From assembly GCA_001683735.1 (NCBI GenBank), contig LUGG01000003.1, positions 1,426,001 to 1,490,000 on the forward strand: DNA of 64,000 nt, written 5' to 3'. The position numbers and the translations under genes are program-made. Source of the DNA: Grifola frondosa. Taxonomy: Eukaryota; Basidiomycota; Agaricomycetes; Polyporales; Grifolaceae. This document shows, piece by piece, positions 1-12,961 of this stretch (positions within the stretch are counted from its first letter, which is position 1; every line of letters begins with the position of its first letter). The notes beneath the pieces were generated by a model. The model was not told where the DNA came from, made no database searches, and worked only from the letters and a program-made list of their open reading frames with translations.

Positions 1-2800
1 GTTTGATGTTTGGTCTAACGCAGGCATAGGATCGATATAGGGAGTTGCTTACAACGATGCGAGAGTTCATTTTTTTGCGAGCGGCCAAGCGAGCGGGCGA
101 GAAGCCGGGGCGGATATGAAAGCGGGATCCTTAGCATTCTATGCCCAGCATGCCCTCAACCGGACATCAATATGGATCCAAATTGGCGTAGCAGGCCGCG
201 CGGTGAACAGTAGGTCATGAATATTCTAATATGAAATGTCGCTGATGGATTGTCAGATATTTAGATGCTCTTTTCCATACGGTGGATGGCAACTTCCAAC
301 AGAACCAAAGAATGAAGCCGATGGATCCCCTCGATTTTCCTCTGATGTTGGGTGCGGCTTACTACGCGAACGAACATGATTTCGACAAGTTCGAAAAGCG
401 ACTCGGTCCAGCACAGAAAGAGGTGAGTGATTGATGTGTGTTTGCGTAAGTTAGCTTACATGGATACGCCAGCCAACGACCTGTCATAAATTTGGTGCGA
501 TGGGATATGGACGATACGGCGGTCGTATTTCGGGGACTGTCGGGCTGTCTTGTGCTCGGCACATGTTCGTGCTCCCTGGCGGAGGCGTTGATTTACAGAA
601 GGGAGAAAGGTACGAGTCGGTACGAGTCGTGCTATTTTAACTGATAGGACGCTGCTGGACAGGTTTGCCTATGTGGATTACGCGATGCTTTCTGGCTTAC
701 AGCGATGGATACTATTATTATTGCACGTCTCGGGTTACGACATCAACTGCCAATATCGCATCCACTTCCTCGAGCGCATGAAGTGGATCGCCGTCAATAT
801 GGCGGACCTGGCTTCCATTAAGGATAAGATATTCCCGAGGACGCTAGCTGCGGTGGGCAAGTTCCACCTACCAGCCCACAATGCACAATGTCGCTACAAG
901 TTTTCGTACTACTGGCTGCCCGGCGTGGGTATGACGGATGGTGAAGCTCCGGAACGAATTTGGGCAACCCTCAATGCGCTCGCCGGTCGGACGAGAGAGA
1001 TGACCTCTGGACATCTCACGATATCATCAACGACCATCATTCCGACATGAACGTGTGACGGGCGCATGCATTGAGTAAGTCCGCCTTGATATCCAGAATG
1101 TGGCGCTAACGTCTGTTGAATGAAGGCGGCACACTTGTGTCAAAATATGTCATCGCCATTGAACAATTAGAAGTAGCTCGCGATCATCTTGCGAAGGTTG
1201 AATCCAGGTTGCGGCCCAGAAGCTTGCTGAATGGAAAGACGTCGAGCACATGGTTGAAGCAGGTTACGGACATCAACAACCACAAGGGGCTGGAGAATCC
1301 TTACGAGCCCCGCCAGGACACTGGTCGGTGCCTTGCTTCACCATCTCTCGAAATCGTTGTTGATGCAGGACATCTAGCGCTTATGCAGACACAACTGCTG
1401 GCTCAGTTAACGGCACGTTCGACAGTATCCGGCAGGACGACATGTGTCCTGATGACTGTGATTGAAGAGGGGATGGCATTGGAGGACCTGAAGTATGTCT
1501 CTTTGCGTTCACGAATCATTTGACGCTTAAGGATTTTAGGATCGAACTCTTGACGGACATTGCGGGCGATGATGGAACGGACAGCATGCGAGGGGATATT
1601 TCGGCCAAGCGAAAACAATTCGTAGAGAAGCTGGATCTTTGGAAGGAACAGTACGACCGGCACGTGGGTCCCCTTTTGGAGGAGGCTGCCGCAGCGGTCG
1701 TTGTGGCTGTCCAAGATGCTGTTCACGCCTCCTTCCCTTTGGCCGCCCCTGACGTCGACGACCCTGCCGATGACGACACCGGGCAAGCGACCACCACAGC
1801 AGGCAAGCGGCGTCATCCGCCAACTCCGCCACCTCGCCCTCCTTTGTGGCACGAAATCGATGCAGTGCGAATTGATCTGCCATCATCTTACGACCCCAGA
1901 GTACAGCGGCATGCCAGCATGGTGTCTGTGGTCGAGGTGGAGAAGACTTTACGCCAAGTTCAGGCGAAAGCAGCTCTCGACGAAGTCAGAACACACATCA
2001 TCACCAACAAAGCCTTCAAAATCCAAAAACACAATGTTTCCGGCCAAAAAGCAACAACCAGAGCAACAAATCAAATCAGAAAGAAACAGCAAGCCATCAA
2101 CGAAGCAGCAAGTAAGTATCGCAGAGCGCGACGGACACTGATTACCCTAGGCATGAAACGAGAAGATCGGACATATCGTGAGCTCAAGCCAGAAGATGTG
2201 CGCAAGTTTACTTTGTATTCTGCCCAACAGCAACTCGGACAGAGCAAGGAGACTCCATCGTGGATATGGGAGAGTTTCTCATTCGTGGAGGAGCAGCAGG
2301 ATGAGAAATATAGGGATTTCTTTGATGACGGTACCGGCCTATGGTTACTTCCGAGTGACAGATTGTTTGACATGTTTCTTAGCGTTGCGGGTTCATTGGT
2401 TCAGATCAAGTGCCCTGAAGCAGCGCTGGGACGAGCAGGTCCGCTTATTGGAGGAAGAGATGCGACGAACGGTGCGCTTCTTCTCGCACTTCAAGAGGCA
2501 CTGGAGCAAGAAGGCCGATGCGGCGGACCAGTTGGGTCTGCCGGGTGAAGCGGCATATGCTCGAAAGTAAGTGCGTTTGCACCTGTTTGCAGGCCTGAAT
2601 TAATGATGAATTAATTCATAGACAGGCTGACCGTTATTTGAGGTTATTAGAAGCCAGATGTGATCATTTCGTGGACAAAGTGGATACGGTGAGTCGACAC
2701 TACTTACCGGAGTGTCTTGACAACACTGAAGATGATGTCAGCGTGGTGCTCTGGCAGATCTGGGAGTGGATGACGGGATGGACTTGGATTAGACACTAAT
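1..2800 (+). mobile_element. KDZ-family transposase, partial and disrupted
   Basis: This is a DNA transposase of the Kyakuja-Dileera-Zisupton superfamily, recognised from conserved blocks. In order these are a DRYRELL..KRAG block near 30-105, a CPACPQP block near 140-165, DALFHTVDGNF near 262-295, the CARHMFVLPGGGVDLQKGER block at 520-610, the YDINCQ..HFLERM block at 737-780, the KFHLPAHNAQC..LPGVGMTDGEAPERIW block at 860-962, and a charged coiled C-terminus to about 2790. Introns can be placed at about 199-258, 611-662, 2569-2621 and 2691-2740. The N-terminus lies left of the window. Reading frame is lost near 115, 136, 1016 and 2385, and a TGA sits at 1056-1058. The copy may be decayed, but several of the breaks are single missing G/C bases like those seen in housekeeping genes here, so its true state is uncertain. 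Terminal repeats were not found. Confidence 0.85.
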
Positions 2801-3378
2801 ATTCGTGATATAATACATGAAATTCACTGCATCTATACTCTTAAGGTACCATGGCAATCAAATTTCTGCGGCATGCCTTGACTTTGCGACGATGGCCTTC
2901 CTCCGCCAGAAACTCCTGCCGAAGGACCCGGTCCCGTAAGGCCGTTAGCTGCGTTCCGTTCGGCAGCGGGCCTTGTGTTGCGGGCAACGTCGAGATGACG
3001 CTCCCACCATCGCGGTTGGTCATCGGAAACGCGGGTGGTTGTGGCGGCATTCCGTTCTCTACGGAGCTGGTCCCTGCCTACCACGCACGGACTGCATGCG
3101 CCCTCCATCGAAGCTGATGCGGCACGCCTTGCTGCCGCTACCTGCCACAGTGCGACACCCGGGCGAGCTTCGTGCGTGCGCCACAACCATTCAGCCCCCC
3201 GTGGAGATGGAAATTAGTTGCGTAGCTTGTTGAGTTTCTTGTAGGCACTATTATTAAGTACTTAGACGGAAATGCATGAAATTTACATCAAAAAATTGTA
3301 TTGTCAAGAGCACACGAGAATTCAAGCCCTTTGTTAAGATGAAAAAGACACGAAAATGATCTGAAGTTCATTGATGAA
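2801..3378. other. Spacer without a supported gene
   Basis: The stretch is GC-rich from 2840 to 3190 and AT-rich after that. Overlapping open frames exist on both strands between 2833 and 3233, but none shows a recognisable domain or splice-site pattern, and they look like shadows of base composition. Confidence 0.5.
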
Positions 3379-3620
3379 GCCGCCTCTAACGTATCGAGAA
3401 CTTGGCGCTCAACAAACCCGACGCGTCAAAAGACAACTTGAGGCCCGGATGCATCTTGCCCTCTGTGGGATGTATCTTTCCCTGGATGGGACTCAAAAAG
3501 GATCTTCAACTGATAGAGCCGCCTTGGGCGCTCAATGAACCCGACGCGTCAATTGGCACTTGAGGCTGGGATGCATCTTGCCCTCTGTAGGATGTATCTT
3601 GCCTCGGATGCATCTTGGAT
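3379..3620. repeat. Tandem pair of about 110 bp units with GGATGCATC words
   Basis: Two direct copies lie at about 3379-3490 and 3517-3620. Both carry GCGCTCAA, then AACCCGACGCGTCAA, then ACTTGAGGC, then GGATGCATCTTGCCCTCTGT (GGG in place of CGG at the left edge in copy 2). They differ by scattered substitutions, so the duplication is not recent. Confidence 0.75.
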
Positions 3621-3679
3621 TGATTCAAAGTGGCAAAGAAAATGTGTATGTATTATATGTAGAATTGAAATAAAATATT

Positions 3680-3754
3680 GGTATATGGTGCAGTTGGAGC
3701 ATCACCCATTTTCAGATTTGAGGTTGTCGGTTCGAACCCGCTAGATGTCATTTT
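3680..3754 (+). repeat. tRNA-derived, SINE-like unit with Pol III A and B boxes
   Basis: An A-box-like TGGTGCAGTTGG lies at 3686-3697 and a perfect B box GGTTCGAACCC at 3729-3739, 31 nt apart as in a tRNA. A TTTT terminator follows at 3751-3754. The acceptor ends do not pair and the T stem is imperfect, so this is not a working tRNA. It fits the head of a tRNA-derived SINE or a decayed tRNA. Confidence 0.6.
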
Positions 3755-3890
3755 ATATCCGGATGCATTTGGGCATCCGGATGCATCTTGTCATCTGATC
3801 ACTCAAATTAGGCCTTGGTGGGTACTCCATCGGGATGCATCCTGCCGAGGAGCATTATACCGGCAAGATGCATCTTGCGAACTGAATCTC
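3755..3890. repeat. Further GGATGCATC-type repeat words
   Basis: At least four more copies of the ATGCATC word occur here, near 3759, 3779, 3833 and 3868. Some are adjacent to GGCATCC, which makes short inverted pairs. They continue the word seen at 3379-3620 on the other side of the tRNA-like unit. Confidence 0.6.
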
Positions 3891-3956
3891 TACCTTGCGA
3901 TCGTGATGAATTCTGATTTTTTTCCTAGCCTACAAAGCCAAGGAGCCCCTACTACA

Positions 3957-6900
3957 ATGATAGCCATTTGCGGAGGTATCCATCATTCATGCGTTTTCTC
4001 TAGACGTAAATTCACGATACGTATTTGCAGCTACCGGCGCTGGCAAATCCTCGATCTTGAATGCGATCCTCGACGGTGAGCGGTGTCTGTTTTGGGAGCG
4101 GTTGATCTTAACGCTAAATGTTGCCATGTAGACAACATCGTTCCAACGAGTGGCATGCGAGGTGCGTTACAAAACATTTTTGGCTAAATTATTCTGACAG
4201 TTGGTTCCGTAAAGCTTGCACTGCCGTGGTCACCGAAATTGGTTACCATGCAAGGAAGACCATAGACGCTGATGTATCTTTCCTTTCCGAGCAGGAATGG
4301 CGAGAAGAGCTCTCTGTTCTTCTCGACGACCTAGTGGATGAAGATGGACATCTCAAGCGCAGTACGGATTTGCGGAGTGATGCCGGCATCGCCTGGTCGA
4401 AGGTGAGAGTTTTTAACATTGCATGATCATATTGTACTCACTCGCAGTTGTGGGCAGGTGCATGCGGTGTATCCTTCAATATCGCAGGAACAGATGGTGA
4501 AGTTAACCATTGATCAAATCATCGCTCGTGATCCCAGTACGAGGATTCTTTTCTGCAATTTGTATCTCTCTTCACAGCAATTTTAGAAATTGCGAAGATC
4601 CTTGGTACGACAAAGCATATAACCGCTCCTGACTCGAAGACTTTTGCCAAGGAGATAGGAAAGTACATTGACTCCAAAGACCAAAAGCGCGGCGACAAAA
4701 AGGACAAGTCGAAGTCAAAGGAGAAAAACAAGGAACCCAGTCTCATGGACAAGCTCAGAAAAGAAGTTGGCAAGAAAAAGAAGGACGAGGATGCTGATGG
4801 TCCTGCTTATTGGCCGCTGATCCGTCAAGTGAATGTCCGCTGTTCTTCTCGCGCCCTCTCGACCGGCGCTATTTTAGTCGACCTTCCAGGTGTCGCCGAC
4901 GCCAACGCTGCAAGAAACAACATCGCGAAAGACTACATGAAGAAATGTGATTGCGTATGGATTCTCGCTCCAATTACTCGAGCTGTGGACGACAAGACTG
5001 CTCGAGGTGAGTACAGGACTTATATTGCGCTGCTGTTGAGTGTAACCCATATTTCTTATCAGACTTGATGGGTGACGCATTCAAGATGCAGCTCATGATG
5101 GGTATGTCGGCTACAATCATAACTACTCGGCATCACTGAGTATTTTATTTGCAGACGGGAAGTAAGTATCAGGTTACATTTAAACCGCAATTGCATCCTT
5201 ATATATTGCCTAGCTATGACGCAAACGCTATCACTTTCATCGGTAAGCATTTGTATTGTGATAAGGGATCTTGTATTTTATAACAAACACTGTCTTGCAG
5301 CCACGAAATGCGATGATATTTCTTGCTCGGAGGTTATTCGCGCACTTAACTTGGAAACTGAGCCCGTGCTTGAAGAGATTGAGGAGCAAATTGAGAAATG
5401 CAAAGAAGAAACCCACGAGTGGAAGGGTAAGAAGAGCGAGGCTGAGGCCTCCGCGAAAGGTAAACCGCTTCGTTTCGGCATTTGTTTGAGTTCTCACCTT
5501 CTGCCGCCATAGAAATCGACAAGCAATTGAAGGAGGCCAGAGAGTATCTCAAGGAATATCAGGCCCACCTTGAGGCCTTGGAGAATGACGAAGATTTCAA
5601 GCCTGTTCTGACCGCCAAGGCTTCGAAGGTGAAGAAAAGCGAGCCATCTCAAAGTAAGAAACGGAAGAACACTCGTGGAGGGAAGAAAGCCTCTCCCAAG
5701 AAGAGAAGGGCCGATCATGATGAAGATGACCCCATGGACGAAGACGACGATATGGATGAAGACCTCGACTTCTCGGAATCTGAGAGCGAGAAGAATTCCG
5801 ACGAGGATCAGGATGGCTCTGACGGTTCTCAATCAGGGTCCGGATCTGAAGACGAAGACGCAGAAATGGCAGGGAGCGGTTCCGAAGCGGAGAGCGAAGA
5901 GGAGGAAGTGACGATCGACAGTTTGAAGGCGAAGATTGAGGATACCCGGAATGCCATCAAGGCCGGACGAGTGCAGTTGTCGGAACATCGGAAACAGAGG
6001 AAGGAAGCCAGTGATATGCTCGCCACGCTGAAGAAGAAGCAGGTTAAGGCTCAAAGGGAGAAGAATGCTTTCTGCTCTCTGAAGCGCTCCGAGGTGAGAT
6101 TTCATTCGCATTCATGTTTGTGTCCCGATTGACGCTTCGTTTTTCACAGTTCTCTCGCGACGTTCTCAAAGAAGATTTCCGGGTGGGATTGAAGGATCTC
6201 GATGGTAAGTCCTGAATCCAAAGAATCTGTGACGATTACTCAATCGTCACAGATGCCGCACAAGAGCAACAAAACCCTGATACCTTTGACCCGACCGTGA
6301 ACATTCGAAGTAAGTTTCAACCGCTTCCGTTCCTTGGCATCCATGAACAATCCATATTCTTTAGACTATGATGAAATCGATCTACCCGTCTTTACATGTT
6401 CCTCCAGAGACTACGTCCGCCTGAAAGGTACGCGAATTCTTTAACGTGTCGTTCGCGTTCTAATTTCAGGTTACCCAGGCCAAGTGAAAGGTGACGGCGA
6501 TCCTACGTGTTTCTCGAAGATCGAAGACACATGTATTCCGGAACTTCAAGAATGGTGCCACCAGCTCACTGTCTCTTCTCGCGAACGTGCAGCCCGCAAC
6601 TTTCTCACACATCTCAAGACCTTCTCCAACTCTGTCCGGATATACGTGCAAGGAATTGGTGACGTAACACAGAGCGATCGCGAAGCCATGCGGGAGAAGT
6701 GGGAGTCAAGCATGGCGGAAGATGTGCCCGACTTTATGGATGACGGTTGGGATAGTTCAGATCCCTATGATGACGAGCTGTTGGCAGCCTTGGCCTCGTA
6801 TGGCGGCGGCGGCCTGTTCTCGATGAACAAGCGCCAGACCAAGGTCGACAAGTATGGCGAGCCTGTCGGAGTCACGCCTCGTCTCGTCAAGGTTTGTCAT

Positions 6901-9900
6901 TTCATCCTGTTAATAGCTATTTCCGCCTCACGTTTGCTCTAGGACTTTATAAAGGTCATCGACGATTGCGTCCAAGAGTTGCAGAATCGCTTCAGCGACG
7001 GGCTGGAGGAAAAATGTCAGCTTGGTGCATTGAGCGTACGTGGTGCAGTTCTTCAAGCATCAGCAAAACTCGACACACTCTGATTTGCTCTGGATGACTC
7101 TGTTTCGTCTGAGTATCTGAACCACCAGACCATTCAGACATAACAGAGGTTTCATAAGCCCTCATTGTCTGAAAGCTCTGAAGCCTCTTGATGGTCTTCA
7201 GCAGAAGCTTCAGAGCTTCAGAATTGTCCGGACACAGCTCAGATTTCAGATGGCATTGAGAAGATGTATTTCATACAGACTGCTCAGAGCTTACAGACTG
7301 CCTAAATGACAATTTAGCTACTTCTACATAATGTCCGACAGCACCTCTGCAATCAGCACCAACAGCACAAAGTGCTCCAACACGTACGTGCACCACCTGT
7401 TGACTATGGTATGTTTGCGTCCAACGGCGCAATACGAGCGGCCGCCTAAGCATGCTGTGGTCCCGTGCAGATGAATGCCTCATTCGCACTGGCATTGCAG
7501 TTGATGACGGAGCGCACGACATGGAGCAGCATGTCCACGAAGATCGGGTGAACGACGTATGCAACCCTTGGAAGCGGCCGCAGGCAGCTGCACAACCGCA
7601 TACACGTCGATCCCGTTTGCCTAGATGGTGGTAAACTTCACGCTGTGGAAGATCAGTGAGTAGGCAATGATGCGCGAGAAGACGAGATCGTACGCAGTGC
7701 ACATGTAGAACATCTCTGCAGCGCGGGAGTCGAGCACGGCCTACCGGCGCCACTCGACCATCGTGTTTGCGAGCATAAGCTTCAATGCACGCTACGAGCT
7801 GCTGAAGACGCCCGTGCAGTATGGTTGGTGTTCGCCGTCTGTAGTGTATGAGCTGATGCCAAATGTGTAAGCCTACCTCTCGCCAGATGCGTTGAGTGTG
7901 ATGTCCATGCATACCGGGCGTGCGACACACGGAGAGTGGACGAGCATGTTGAGTAGGTGATCCTGACGAGGTCGAGTACCGCGTCCGTTGGCATGGGCAC
8001 AAGGCGTTCGAGCACATGCTGCATGCCGGCCAATGCGAGTTTGTGGTAAACCGAGGGTGGGCACAACGCGAAGCCAGACACCTTGTGGCCCTCAACGAGG
8101 TCCGCCAGTTGGCTGATAGGTGTCTCGAATACACCATCGACACCCTCTGCAGAGGGCATGCCAACACAGGAGTCAAACAGGGAAAAGCGGGGCTTGGGGA
8201 GTATCAGAGTGAGTGCGGCAGCAGCCTGCGGTCGGAGGTCACCAAATAGCGCGTGTCGGCGAAACGATACAGCGGGAGGTCTACGAGATAGACGCGAGGG
8301 CGTTGAAGACCATGCGATATCATTGGCAATGGGCAGTGCATACAGCCCAGCGAGGGCAGCACAAAGCACGGCGAACTCGGAGGCATTCTTGCGTAGCGAG
8401 GGGAGGAGCAGAGGTGCACCCGCGTGTCCCTGGAGGCAGCGCAGCATCGGGAACATCATGGGGTGCGGACCGATGTCGATGCACGCTGCGACAGTCTTAA
8501 ATTCGGGGCCGCGCACAGCGACCAGCCGCAGCGCATCGTCCAGTTTCAGCACCCAGGCGGTGACCTGGGCCGCGTACTTACCAAGACTGCATCATCCACA
8601 AGCTACCTGATCCTAAGTCCAGAAAAAGGAGAAACACACCTATGGCCCGCCACGGCATCGGGCTTCACGCCCCACTCGATCCAAAGCGATGCAAGCGCAT
8701 GTTCAAGGACGAACACTGTGCTCTGGAACGCCCGGGATGCCTCTGCGCTCTCCACATCCACCTCTCCTCCCAAGCTCTGCACCCATCCCGACGTACTGCC
8801 CGCCCTGCCCGCTGAATGCAAACAACGCCTTCGCCTGCTCCCCGCCCTTCTGCGGCACGACCGCCGCGGTCTGCACATCATGCAGGTTCGTGAGGAGCTC
8901 CGCGGCGGAGCATCCGGTGACTGCCATGCGGTGCCGGAGGAGCTTGCGCCATGCAGTGCTGGCGTATGCAACGTCCGTGAGCACGAGTGCATCATGCGGA
9001 GTGCCCTCAAGTTGAGCAATGAGTGTCGCACGCCGCTGACCCGCAGAACTAAGGCCGCTGGAAAAAACAGCAAGATGCTAGCGGGAGGAATCATCGTGAC
9101 GAAAGGTGGGAGAGTGGAGGAGGGAACGAGGTATACGATGCAGCCCAAGACTTGTGGTACAGGTGAGTACTGAGTGAGCGTGAGAGTATCAATCAAAGTT
9201 GAACTTGAACGTTTGAACTTGCGCGCTTCGAAGTTCCCAGTACTTCTGGTGGCTGCCGCATCACGTTCGAGTTCACTTCCACCTTCACGTTAATGGTGTA
9301 TACAACTCCTTACCGCCTCGCTGCCCTCCCCTCCGACATTCGCCCTCCCGGATATCAGCACGCTCTATGTCTCTGTCGCCGTGTGCTCCACAGGGCAGTA
9401 TCTGCGGTTCTTTGTGACGAACGACACCTCCATCTCGCAGCCGGGGCCGGGAGACGTGGACGACTCGAGTGTGTTTGAGATCTCGCTGGGCGCGGAGGGC
9501 GTTGGGACTTGGAACGGGACCGCTACGCATGGCGGCGTCCTTGCGATCTACAACAGCCCGGCGGGGGCATCGTTCCAAGTCGGTATTTCCGACGTCCGTG
9601 AGTACCTGTTCCGCAAGAGGACTAAGGAAGGCCACTGAATGTCTCTCAGAGGATATCTTCAATATCACAGATATATATCCCCTCCTTGGAGGTACCGCAT
9701 CTAATCAAGCACTGCCCTTCTCCCCTCCCTTCTCTCCAATCACATATGCGTCCCCGACCTACCCAAACTACACGCTCCCGCCCGCAAACCTCACCTTCCC
9801 GCCTGCCCGTTCTTCACCCCCAGATTATAGCCTGCACATCGTGCAGACCTCCTCTTCCTCGCTGTCAACTATGCCCCGCACTGCCTGCGCAATACGCAAT

Positions 9901-12130
9901 TTGCGCACGGCAAGCGCCACACTGGTCAGCGCGTCGTCGAGCCAGGGCCTGTGGCTGCACGATGACGATGGCTGGCTGTGGCAATGGCTCATCGGAGGGC
10001 TCACACCACTCACGAACTATACGGCATTCGCCATGCAGGACCAGACGAAGATGAGCCGGCCAATAAACTTCGTCACAAAATCCGGTACGTCTCATCTTCC
10101 GGATTGCGCCTCGCCGACCAGCTGACGCCTTACCCCAGCGGCCTTCATATGCCCTATCATGACTTGCTCCCATTCTGCCCGTCGACTGGCTACGTGGTAC
10201 CCCTTCCTGCGCCGCCTGACCCAGCTAGGGGGCACACCGCACAAACGATCCCTGCAGATACGAGCGTGACTATGCTCGTGATCCTCGCGGACTTCACGAC
10301 GCTCACCATGCTCGCATGCGGGCGCGACGAGTACAGCCCGCTCGTATCCTGTGCGGAAAACCCACATTCTCCGTCTATGACACTACACGCAGAATCGGTT
10401 TCGACCCCATTTACCGCCAGGCCTCGCACGCGAGCAGAGCATCGTGCAGTGCCGGGAGAAGGAGGAGGAGAGCAGCAGCAGTGACGAGGAGGACGTGCGT
10501 GGCACATCCGTCATCGAGAATGCGAACATCGACCCGCAGCTCCGCAACCAGGGCCATGTCGTCGGCAAAGGTCGTCTGCGTGCCGAAACACGACGCGCTC
10601 CAGCACCCACCGCGGGCACTCGCCGTGCACTACCAGTTCCTGGCAGGGCTCCCCGGCACGCGCGCGGCTGCACATGACCCCCACTCCGACCCCCGTGCCC
10701 GTGCCTGTGCCCGTGTCCGCTCCCGCTGCTCTGCGCGCCGCCGTCTTTGGTCAGACTATGTTCGAGCAGCCGATGCGGAGCTGGGTCCACTTACTTTTAC
10801 TTAAATGTTCATTTTGTGCTCGGTTTTAATTTCTTCAGTCTGTGAGCTCTAGTTGATCTGATTCGGATCAGACAACTCAGAGTGACCAGACAAATATTCT
10901 TGGTGGTCTAAACAGTCTAGGATGTCTTGCTGATCTTATGGTATAAGTGCCGAACTTTTGGTCTGACTGGCTGATGGCTCTGGCCCCTCTGTGATGTTTC
11001 TGGACTTGACTGAACTGCAGATATGTAGTAGTACAGTACCTTGTTCTGAGCCATCTTAAGTGTCTGAATCCATCTGATGTTGCTGTGAGATCTGTTTGGT
11101 CTGAATTAAGACACTTCAGACACATTCAGATGAACTCAGATGAAACCGAGTTTTGCTGATGAAGTGACCATGATGAGGTGTTGATACGTCATTTCATTCA
11201 GGCCGCTGCCGCCGCCCTTCAGACTTCAGACACATTCGCAGCGTCGATGTATTGGAGCACTTACCGTGCCAGTAAGCCGACTTCCTTTCCCTATTGATTG
11301 AAGTATTGTTCCTAATCGCAAATCAGCTCTGCGGCGCCATGGCTCCTGGCGACAGGACCTCAACGTCGAGCTGACGAATCCCTTCACGCGCAACATCGCA
11401 AGCTCGTGGTCCAAAGTGTTCGAAGCGGACCTCTTCGCCTCGTTCGAGAAGGCCGCCACGAGCGCGATCAACAAGCTGCTCGAGGACGTGGAGAAGTCCG
11501 CCGCGGTGGGCTTGAAGGAGCGCGCCAAGGGCCAGGGGAGCTGTGCCTCGAGGAGGCGCGCTCGCGCTGAAGAAGACGCTCGACGTCGTGCGCGAGACGA
11601 TGAACACGGAGCAGAAGGAGGTCAGCCGCTGCCTCGCGCCGCATGTGCAGAACCAGCTGGTGGATGGGTACGACCGCGCGATGGAGGAGCGCGGGAGGGG
11701 CAGCGTCGCCCGCCAGAAGGTGCGCCTCGTTTTTCGTGCGGTTTGCAGATGCTGATGCATGGGTGTAGGCGGTGTTCCATGACTATGTGGACGATCTCAA
11801 GGACGAGATCTTCACGGGCGCTGCGGACGTGCTTCTGACTCGCTTGGCGAAGGCAGCGGAGGCGGTGGGTAAGGCCCTCGAAGATGCCCTTGAGGAGCTC
11901 GCCAAGAAGGTGCGTCGTGGCGTGTATCTTCTGGTGATTTGTCCGTGGTGCTGATCGTGGCTGTGGCTGTGCAGATCGAGGTCAGTATCGCGGTGCTGTG
12001 GGAGGGCCAGCGCGACGACCCTGCGCAGGTGAAGGCGCGCGAGGAAGTCGTCCGCACTGTGTGCGAAATCATCGGGCAGGTCCAGATATGGTCGCAGGCC
12101 GAGGAGTTCGGGCGCGCTGACGCCGTCTGA
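3957..12130 (+). CDS. Dynamin-type (nuclear, SLIP-GC-like) large GTPase, interrupted by a transposon in an intron
   Basis: A large P-loop GTPase of the dynamin/SLIP-GC type. Visible exons are 3957-3975, 4031-4075, 4132-4161, 4215-4402, 4458-4536, 4578-5006, 5063-5101, 5155-5161, 5214-5242, 5301-5459, 5513-6093, 6150-6204, 6253-6309, 6365-6427, 6470-6891, 6943-7035, 11202-11271, 11327-11719, 11769-11909 and 11975-12130. The G1 motif is GATGAGKSS, the G3 region is VDLPGVAD, and ATKCDD is the TKxD base-specificity motif. A Lys-rich, then very acidic insert (about 5640-5920) with a nuclear-signal-like PKKRR suggests nuclear location. The ATG sits directly before the P-loop; an in-frame PSLQSQGAPTT stretch preceded by a TAG acceptor at 3928 suggests an earlier exon lost among the repeats. 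Two apparent 1-nt losses (about 11536 and 11566) break frame in the last third. Whether the gene still works is unclear. Confidence 0.8.
7058..7072 (+). repeat. Left terminal inverted repeat
   Basis: CATCAGCAAAACTCG, an exact inverted match to 11147-11161. It is preceded by the target duplication AAG. Confidence 0.9.
7320..9060 (-). pseudogene. Captured fragment of a non-reducing polyketide synthase (linker, AT, PT)
   Basis: Reading on the minus strand from about 9060: a KS-AT linker (MLTDVAYASTAWRKL), then the acyltransferase start FSGQGGQYVGMG, then WIEWGVKPDAVAGH, where the nucleophile motif GHSxG should follow. The motif is missing. The match resumes with LDDALRLVA and jumps to DIGPHPMMFPMLR, so most of the AT core is deleted. 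A product-template domain follows with HKVSGFALCPPSVYH (carrying the expected catalytic His), then ISSYTTDGEHQPYCTG, AYDLVFSRIIAYS and DANGIDVYAVVQLP, spread over different frames. A TAG lies near 7741. KS, ACP and TE domains are absent. This piece cannot make a polyketide. The parent is probably an orsellinic-acid-type basidiomycete synthase elsewhere in the genome. Confidence 0.85.
9295..10400 (+). pseudogene. Captured fragment of a Mid1-type stretch-activated calcium channel subunit
   Basis: Blocks matching fungal Mid1 appear in order: STLYVSVAVCSTGQYLRFF then VTNDTSISQPGPG (9355-9455), GTWNGTATHGGVLAIYNSP (9508-9560), the loop LLGGTASNQALPFSPPF (9684-9735), TYPNYTLPPANLTFPP (9755-9805), LWLHDDDGWLWQWLIGGLTP and NYTAFAMQD (9950-10045), LPFCPSTGYVVPLPAP (10162-10215) and ACGRDEYSPLVSCA (10314-10360). 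The Cys-rich C-terminus is unreadable past about 10400. Frame changes occur between blocks, some at plausible introns. Mid1 normally acts at the plasma membrane with Cch1; this copy lacks a clear start and end and sits in a transposon, so it is treated as a captured remnant. Confidence 0.8.
11147..11161 (-). repeat. Right terminal inverted repeat
   Basis: The exact inverted match of 7058-7072, followed by the target duplication AAG at 11162-11164. Confidence 0.9.
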
Positions 12131-12961
12131 GCCTGCCTGTCGAGTCGCGTTTCCAAATAAAGGATCCGCCCGGTATGGTGTTTGCGTTGAAAGTTATTGT
12201 ATTAATCCGCGGCAGAGAGCTGTGTTCGTAGACCCCCTCCTATGTTACGGTGTGGTATGTTCCTTTCCTGTTGTTTGCTTAAGATTCGAGGTTCCCTATT
12301 GTTGTCTGTTATTGCACGCCGCGGTCGTTGAGTGACTTGTTCTGCGTTGTACTGTATGTTCTTCTGATGATTCTATTCCGAGTCCTGACGTTCTGGGTCT
12401 CGTGTTCACTGCAGCAGTGCTAGTGCTTTGTTCGTTCTTAGTGTGTTCTATTTCGTCTATACATTATTGGTATATAGTGGTCGCGTAATCTGTGTACCTT
12501 AGCAGGACAGTTTTCAGCACCATAATATCAGCATACCTGTTTTATCGTAGTGTCTGCCTCAGTTCTAGATGTGACTTGCGGCGAGAAAACGGGAATGCGG
12601 ATAGTACATAAGATTAAGCAGTAGATTCGTTGATAAAAGCAATGGTATAGGTAGGATAGCAAATTGGGCAGCAGAGCGGGAACGACTAATGTAACAAAAC
12701 TTGGGCTACACAGGGAATAATTATCCAACAGAGAGCATAGGAGAGTCGTACAACGAGAGCTAGTAGAACGCGCATGAGGCATAGTCATCAGTCGTGAGCA
12801 TAATACGGGGTTATCGTAACAGTCTCCAATAACAACTCGGAAACGCAGAGAACATAAGAAAGCAAGGATAATGATAGTCCAGGTTCGCACGAGGTAAATT
12901 TTGGAAACGACCAGCGATGGCACGACCAGCGCAGTGGATAGAAGTCCAATCGGACGACCGT
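12131..12961. other. 3' flanks of convergent genes
   Basis: T-rich downstream sequence of the GTPase gene and of the minus-strand gene ending at 12962. No gene is supported. Confidence 0.5.

Follow-up and report, generated by a model that had tools for sequence, protein, structure and literature searches.

How inverted-repeat transposons acquire pieces of host genes is debated, and the known cases are mostly from plants and animals; the plant Pack-MULE and Pack-CACTA elements, for example, are inverted-repeat elements that contain captured host sequence. The locus described here raises the same question in a mushroom. Positions 7058-11161 of a 64,000-nucleotide stretch of Grifola frondosa contig C3 (hereafter, the window) form a bounded DNA transposon of 4,104 bp, which contains fragments of host genes whose parental copies lie outside it: a MID1 gene on contig C7, a polyketide synthase gene on C44 and a forkhead-type gene on C8. 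In the following sections, we ask where this cargo came from, what could have moved the element and whether the cargo is likely to be functional. Since one 39-Mb fungal genome holds the donors, copies of the element, differently loaded sisters and a transposase-bearing relative, the order of capture, the breakpoints and the decay of the captured copies can be read directly.

Boundaries and terminal sequences

By sequence reading, the element is flanked by an AAG target-site duplication, with the left copy at 7055-7057 and the right copy at 11162-11164. It is bounded by 15-bp terminal inverted repeats: the left repeat, CATCAGCAAAACTCG, lies at 7058-7072 on the plus strand, and the right repeat, its perfect inverse, lies at 11147-11161 on the minus strand. 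The termini thus have the form CATCAGC..GCTGATG. Inside them, TCTGA/TCAGA words are clustered in the left end (7058-7465), which is common to many related elements, and in the right end (10776-11161). When each 300-bp end was compared with 500 dinucleotide shuffles, the first 300 bp contained 11 such words against a shuffle mean of 2.8 (maximum 7) and the last 300 bp contained 10 against a mean of 2.7 (maximum 8), that is, about four times the shuffle level. The middle 3,504 bp, with 4 words against 7.0 expected from 50 shuffles, are not enriched.

The element thus has inverted repeats and a target duplication, and no transposase gene was found in it: the 8 of its 39 open frames that were scanned gave no Pfam transposase, and no match to PF18759 lies inside it among the genome matches listed. 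A preliminary description of this locus had given the length, the perfect 15-bp ends and the AAG duplication, all of which are exact in coordinates and sequence, and had reported dense subterminal TCTGA/TCAGA words and the lack of a transposase, with which the above counts and scans agree.

Cargo from three donor genes

The cargo comprises a polyketide synthase piece on the minus strand, followed by MID1 and forkhead-type pieces on the plus strand. The first piece (7466-9044; element positions 409-1987) aligns in three parts, at 82.6, 85.4 and 83.1% identity and with internal deletions, to a gene on C44 (L049) that has ketosynthase, acyltransferase, dehydratase-type (product-template-like), acyl-carrier and thioesterase domain matches. 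We read L049 as a native non-reducing polyketide synthase gene, although, with a match of just 82-85%, the actual donor may have been another, paralogous gene. This piece is followed by a spacer (9045-9289), which, as judged by sequence matches, is common to other elements of the family; among the matches listed, it occurs in other elements only and no native donor was seen.

The second piece (9292-10357, plus strand; element positions 2235-3300) is 91.9% identical to the native MID1 gene (L046, C7:962186-963257), which encodes a stretch-activated calcium channel component and is the sole PF12929 gene above the cut-off. The captured copy has neither the start nor the last part of the gene, but it keeps both donor introns, at 9598-9649 and 10085-10138 on the plus strand. 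MID1 was therefore captured from DNA, and we reject an RNA-mediated capture.

The third piece (10361-10771, plus strand) aligns in two parts (element positions 3304-3366 and 3366-3714, at 93.7 and 86.3%) to a gene on C8 (L055) that has a Forkhead match at 2.6e-8, and the 777 bp of L055 that lie between these two parts are absent from the element. Together, the three donors account for 3,056 of the 4,104 bp, and the ends, donors and spacer explain all but 9 bp. No good end (at most 2 mismatches) was found in 9.5 kb around the native MID1 gene, nor around the native polyketide synthase gene. The preliminary description had recognized fragments of two genes on opposite strands and had proposed aligning them to non-reducing polyketide synthase and MID1 genes of the same genome. 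This alignment identified L049, L046 and the MID1 introns; the strands stand as described, while the number of donors has to be corrected to three with the addition of the forkhead-type gene.

Insertion site

When the two flanks are joined with one AAG removed, they form a 59-bp intron with GT..AG ends across which the reading frame remains open, and a reading frame upstream of it has a Dynamin_N match. From the splice sites, the open frame over the join and the upstream domain, we infer that the element sits within an intron, now spanning 7036-11201 on the plus strand, of a dynamin-family GTPase gene.

Copies and relatives in the genome

The genome searched consists of 39,061,742 bases in 64 contigs, and the element counts given below are lower bounds. 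The 15-bp end occurs 360 times with at most 2 mismatches, as compared with 47 times for a reversed control pattern. The preliminary description had regarded a lack of other copies with these ends as evidence against its reading; the search that it proposed found a sister insertion at C6:1951249-1955297, as well as further relatives. The sister is 97.3% identical to the window element, lies in other flanks and has exact boundaries and its own 2-bp duplication.

Another copy, on C9 (a contig of 509,523 bp), has flanks identical to those of the window, and C9 matches window positions 1-6900 and 5556-12661 at 99.9-100%; a second, separate jump is rejected on these grounds. The near-identity holds between window 1-12661 and C9 from 496077 to the end of the contig, which falls near the position equivalent to window 13446. 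C9 is probably allelic to the window contig or a duplicate of it, and its end may represent a second haplotype that the assembly left unmerged. The upstream part of the window (1-3893) is itself a repeat that has, besides C9, five copies at 98-99% (on C50, C14, C15, C7 and C32), and parts of it have weaker matches (66-71%) in many more places. A 360-aa frame of this repeat gave no Pfam match.

The trio of cargo pieces is thus present at more than one insertion, namely the C3/C9 site and the C6 site, and also in a relic on C2. This decayed locus (L051, C2:63.6-66.9 kb) retains polyketide synthase, MID1 and forkhead pieces in the window order at 78-89%, and no element end was found with at most 4 mismatches in the 10 kb fetched. 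The polyketide synthase stretch is more widespread, being partly common to 12 of 20 loci besides L033 and L034 (L035-L043, L045, L050 and L051). Apart from L051, all of them (11 loci) lack a MID1 match and have at least one recognizable end, and several hold pieces of other host genes. At four of the loci (L035, L042, L045 and L050), a further common insertion is nested within the polyketide synthase part, with L035 and L042 alike up to about 6 kb.

These loci bear on the possibility that ordinary segmental duplication or rearrangement joined the gene pieces and that the pair of ends merely encloses them. The C2 relic, which keeps the order of the pieces with no recognizable ends in the sequence fetched, is what such a process could leave behind. 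However, the boundaries are exact and the flanks different at C3 and C6, the C6 insertion has its own duplication, and 11 further loci combine the polyketide synthase part with at least one end and no MID1 match. We consider this explanation extremely unlikely, and the C6 insertion already largely refutes it.

The 3-bp duplication of the window element differs from the usual 2 bp of its relatives. Among 12 other elements, whose ends were partly placed by hand or accepted with up to 3 mismatches, ten have 2-bp duplications and two have none. An automatic pass over 15 sites, including the window element, gave 2 bp in seven, 3 bp in one (the window element) and none in seven, six of which are 200-bp elements. 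MITE-like elements of about 200-220 bp that have the same 15-bp ends were seen at C1:268790-268999, C3:1272359-1272578 and other places, several of them having no clear duplication.

Order of capture and decay of the captured copies

Shared breakpoints order the captures. The MID1 piece has the same left breakpoint in the window element, in an element on C16 (L047) and in a near copy of the latter on C2 (L048), and the forkhead part of L047 begins at the window breakpoint but is a longer piece. The MID1-forkhead join was therefore made once, and the window copy subsequently lost the 777 bp; the identical breakpoints lead us to reject independent MID1 captures in L047 and L048. The polyketide synthase part, which many elements combine with differing second halves, was probably captured earlier. 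The 2.7% divergence between the C3 and C6 insertions postdates both the polyketide synthase capture and the MID1-forkhead join.

The fate of the cargo was assessed from the MID1 copies. The number of sites apart is 50 for the native gene versus the four element copies, 30 for the window and C6 copies together, 8 for the window copy alone and 68 for L047/L048. The corresponding coding changes, given as synonymous to nonsynonymous, are 22:7, 11:14, 2:6 and 24:40. The synonymous share is thus 76% (22/29) for native MID1, 39% (13/33) for the window and C6 copies and 38% (24/64) for L047/L048, where a simple neutral count gives an expectation of 28%. The native gene looks conserved, and the captured copies look far closer to neutral, though somewhat above 28%.

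This comparison is relevant to the idea that the cargo is kept for a function, either because it yields antisense or small RNA that damps the native polyketide synthase or MID1 gene or because it adds a chimeric exon to the dynamin-family gene. The position of the element within a host gene intron, the partly open MID1 frames and the slight excess of synonymous changes over the simple neutral expectation are compatible with this idea. It is nevertheless unlikely in our view, because the window and C6 copies fall well below the native gene in their synonymous share, the MID1 piece has lost its start and last part, and the polyketide synthase and forkhead pieces are internally deleted.

Family assignment and proposed mobilization

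CACTA/EnSpm elements in the strict sense have a terminal CACTA/CACTG motif, which is absent from the window element, whose ends start with CATCAG. Helitrons have neither inverted repeats nor a target duplication, and both are present here. A better match is PlavakaB, for which the accessible text of Kojima 2025 (PMC12730594) gives CATCA..TGATG termini and target duplications of 2 or 3 bp; the termini and the AAG duplication of the window element agree with this definition. The lineage is further characterized by a B-clade transposase and by C(2)C and H(3-4)H motifs.

A transposase-bearing element with the matching type of end lies at C5:971774-991234 (19,461 bp). It has a 2-bp AT duplication and a match to PF18759, the Plavaka transposase domain, at 1.5e-32, and its ends resemble those of the window element at 79% over 251 bp (right) and 76% over 127 bp (left). 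From the coordinates of end and PF18759 matches, C19:718063-733647 and C6:~49680-68772 are candidate transposase-bearing elements as well. PF18759 has at least 154 matches in the genome. In a rough control using 46 transposase loci selected by hand among the PF18759 matches listed, 18 have an exact 15-bp end no more than 20 kb away, whereas 2000 random placements gave 5.5 on average and 13 at most.

On the basis of the termini, the duplications and the PF18759 match in the C5 element, we judge the window element to belong to the PlavakaB lineage, a relative of CACTA. What weighs against this reading is that seven of the 15 automatically paired sites have no duplication, that the window copy has 3 bp where 2 bp are usual and that its ends resemble those of the C5 element only in part. 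That it is instead a true CACTA/EnSpm element is very unlikely. The inverted ends, the 3-bp duplication and the repeated subterminal words are CACTA-like, and Plavaka transposases are described as related to those of EnSpm in the part of PMC12730594 available to us; on the other hand, the ends begin with CATCA rather than CACTA/CACTG, most relatives have 2-bp duplications, and the domain found in an element with matching ends is that of Plavaka. The preliminary description had proposed a Pack-type element and a search for an autonomous CACTA-like partner. The Pack-type architecture is borne out by the inverted repeats, the duplication and the donor fragments, and a transposase-bearing element with such ends exists; the family is now refined to PlavakaB, and the transposase domain identified in the C5 element is PF18759.

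Gene capture elsewhere in the family

The transposase-bearing element on C5 has a mosaic of its own. About 4.2 kb of its 4.7-kb cargo (C5:972372-977086) is matched at 84-95% by nine genomic stretches, which we compared as putative donors with about 100 bp of flank each; a 411-bp part has no match among these nine. Among the stretches, L062 is a gene of the trehalose-phosphate-synthase type (glycosyltransferase family 20), which the captured frame matches weakly. It is one of six donor-stretch frames that were scanned, and the other five (L056, L057, L059, L063 and L064) gave no Pfam hit. In addition, captured frames match the glyoxal oxidase and coproporphyrinogen oxidase families, their fetched counterparts being L061 and L060.

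One donor, C6:1398931-1399675, is split into three successive pieces, between which 0 and 9 donor bases are missing; the inserts that separate the pieces match C36 and C8 plus C12. Later captures therefore landed within an earlier one. Five junctions in this cargo show overlaps of 1-9 bp between neighbouring matches, and at two of these five both matches come from a single donor; apart from the 411-bp part, the remaining junctions leave 4-52 bp.

A kinase-bearing stretch has an 89% counterpart over 1.6 kb on C1. Host sequence is also found in other elements of the family. L041 contains an adaptin piece with a 94% counterpart on C5; the fetched sequence of L041 stops short of the right terminus, and its far end resembles the right part of L036. 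L043 contains a MIF4G piece with genome matches at 73-97% and an EF-2-like piece, recognized by reading its frame and with no Pfam hit, that has 88-92% matches on C18. L037 contains pieces that flank the trehalose-phosphate-synthase-type stretch on C5 sampled by the 19.5-kb element, which suggests that cargo may pass between elements or that it was captured once and then split. A long array of short repeated units is common to the 19.5-kb element (L053 from 7425 into L054) and L041 (4422-8528).

Proposed mechanism

Taken from sequence comparison, our main reading, to which we assign a probability of about 0.9, is that the window element is a Pack-type PlavakaB element that would be moved in trans and whose passenger DNA would result from repeated filler or template-switch capture. 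A Plavaka transposase supplied by larger elements with matching ends would recognize the TCTGA/TCAGA-rich ends and move the element by cut and paste. The cargo would be gained stepwise, as copies of DNA from elsewhere in the genome fill breaks or sites of stalled replication inside the element; the donor pieces would thereby come to lie next to each other, be shortened by internal losses and in some cases be nested in older cargo. Most of the cargo would then be decaying passenger DNA that has no protein function.

For animal Pack-TIR elements, the accessible text of PMC8277862 attributes single-copy cases to gap filling with template switching and multicopy cases to fork stalling. The abutting and nested donor pieces seen here would fit gap filling, and end joining of free DNA may also be a capture route: with overlaps of 1-9 bp, gaps of 4-52 bp and the 411-bp stretch, the junctions form a mixture in which template switching is indistinguishable from end joining.

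A broader reading, which we put forward tentatively and at slightly less than even odds, is that PlavakaB acts as a general gene-shuffling engine in this polypore. Transposase-bearing elements would repeatedly fill breaks in their cargo with copied host pieces and hand the mosaics on to smaller non-autonomous elements, thereby producing nested chimeras from dozens of genes. The maitake case details how fungal transposons can shuffle parts of genes. It also calls for caution, because what looks like part of a polyketide synthase or other gene in a mushroom genome may be cargo of a transposon and not a gene.

Comparison with known systems

In the openly licensed literature, we found no description of a Pack-type or gene-capturing Plavaka element, nor of an equivalent in Grifola. 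PlavakaB, as far as it is covered in the accessible text of PMC12730594, resembles the window element in its CATCA..TGATG termini, its 2-3 bp duplications and the Plavaka transposase in related elements; its families are described there with or without an accessory TET/JBP gene, whereas here many host gene fragments are found instead. Pack-TIR elements share inverted repeats and captured host sequence with the window element, and the part of PMC8277862 available to us discusses their breakpoints in terms of gap filling and template switching. However, Pack-MULE, Pack-CACTA and Pack-TIR elements belong to another superfamily and kingdom, and here the transposase-bearing C5 element also bears a host-gene mosaic. 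The Helitrons of Pleurotus ostreatus (PMC4289320, accessible part) are, as here, mushroom transposons with extra genes, but they are rolling-circle elements.

The closest fungal precedent is a hAT element of Pyrenophora tritici-repentis that has transduplicated a histone H3-like gene (PMC3538342). According to the portion of that paper on which we draw, it is likewise a fungal DNA transposon with an extra gene between its terminal inverted repeats and a short non-autonomous form, and its authors present it as the first fungal example. It differs in being a hAT element of an ascomycete that contains an H3-like gene and a central frame of unknown function, whereas the element described here is a Plavaka element of a basidiomycete with several fragmented donors that are traceable in the same genome. 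Gene capture by a fungal DNA transposon is thus already in print.
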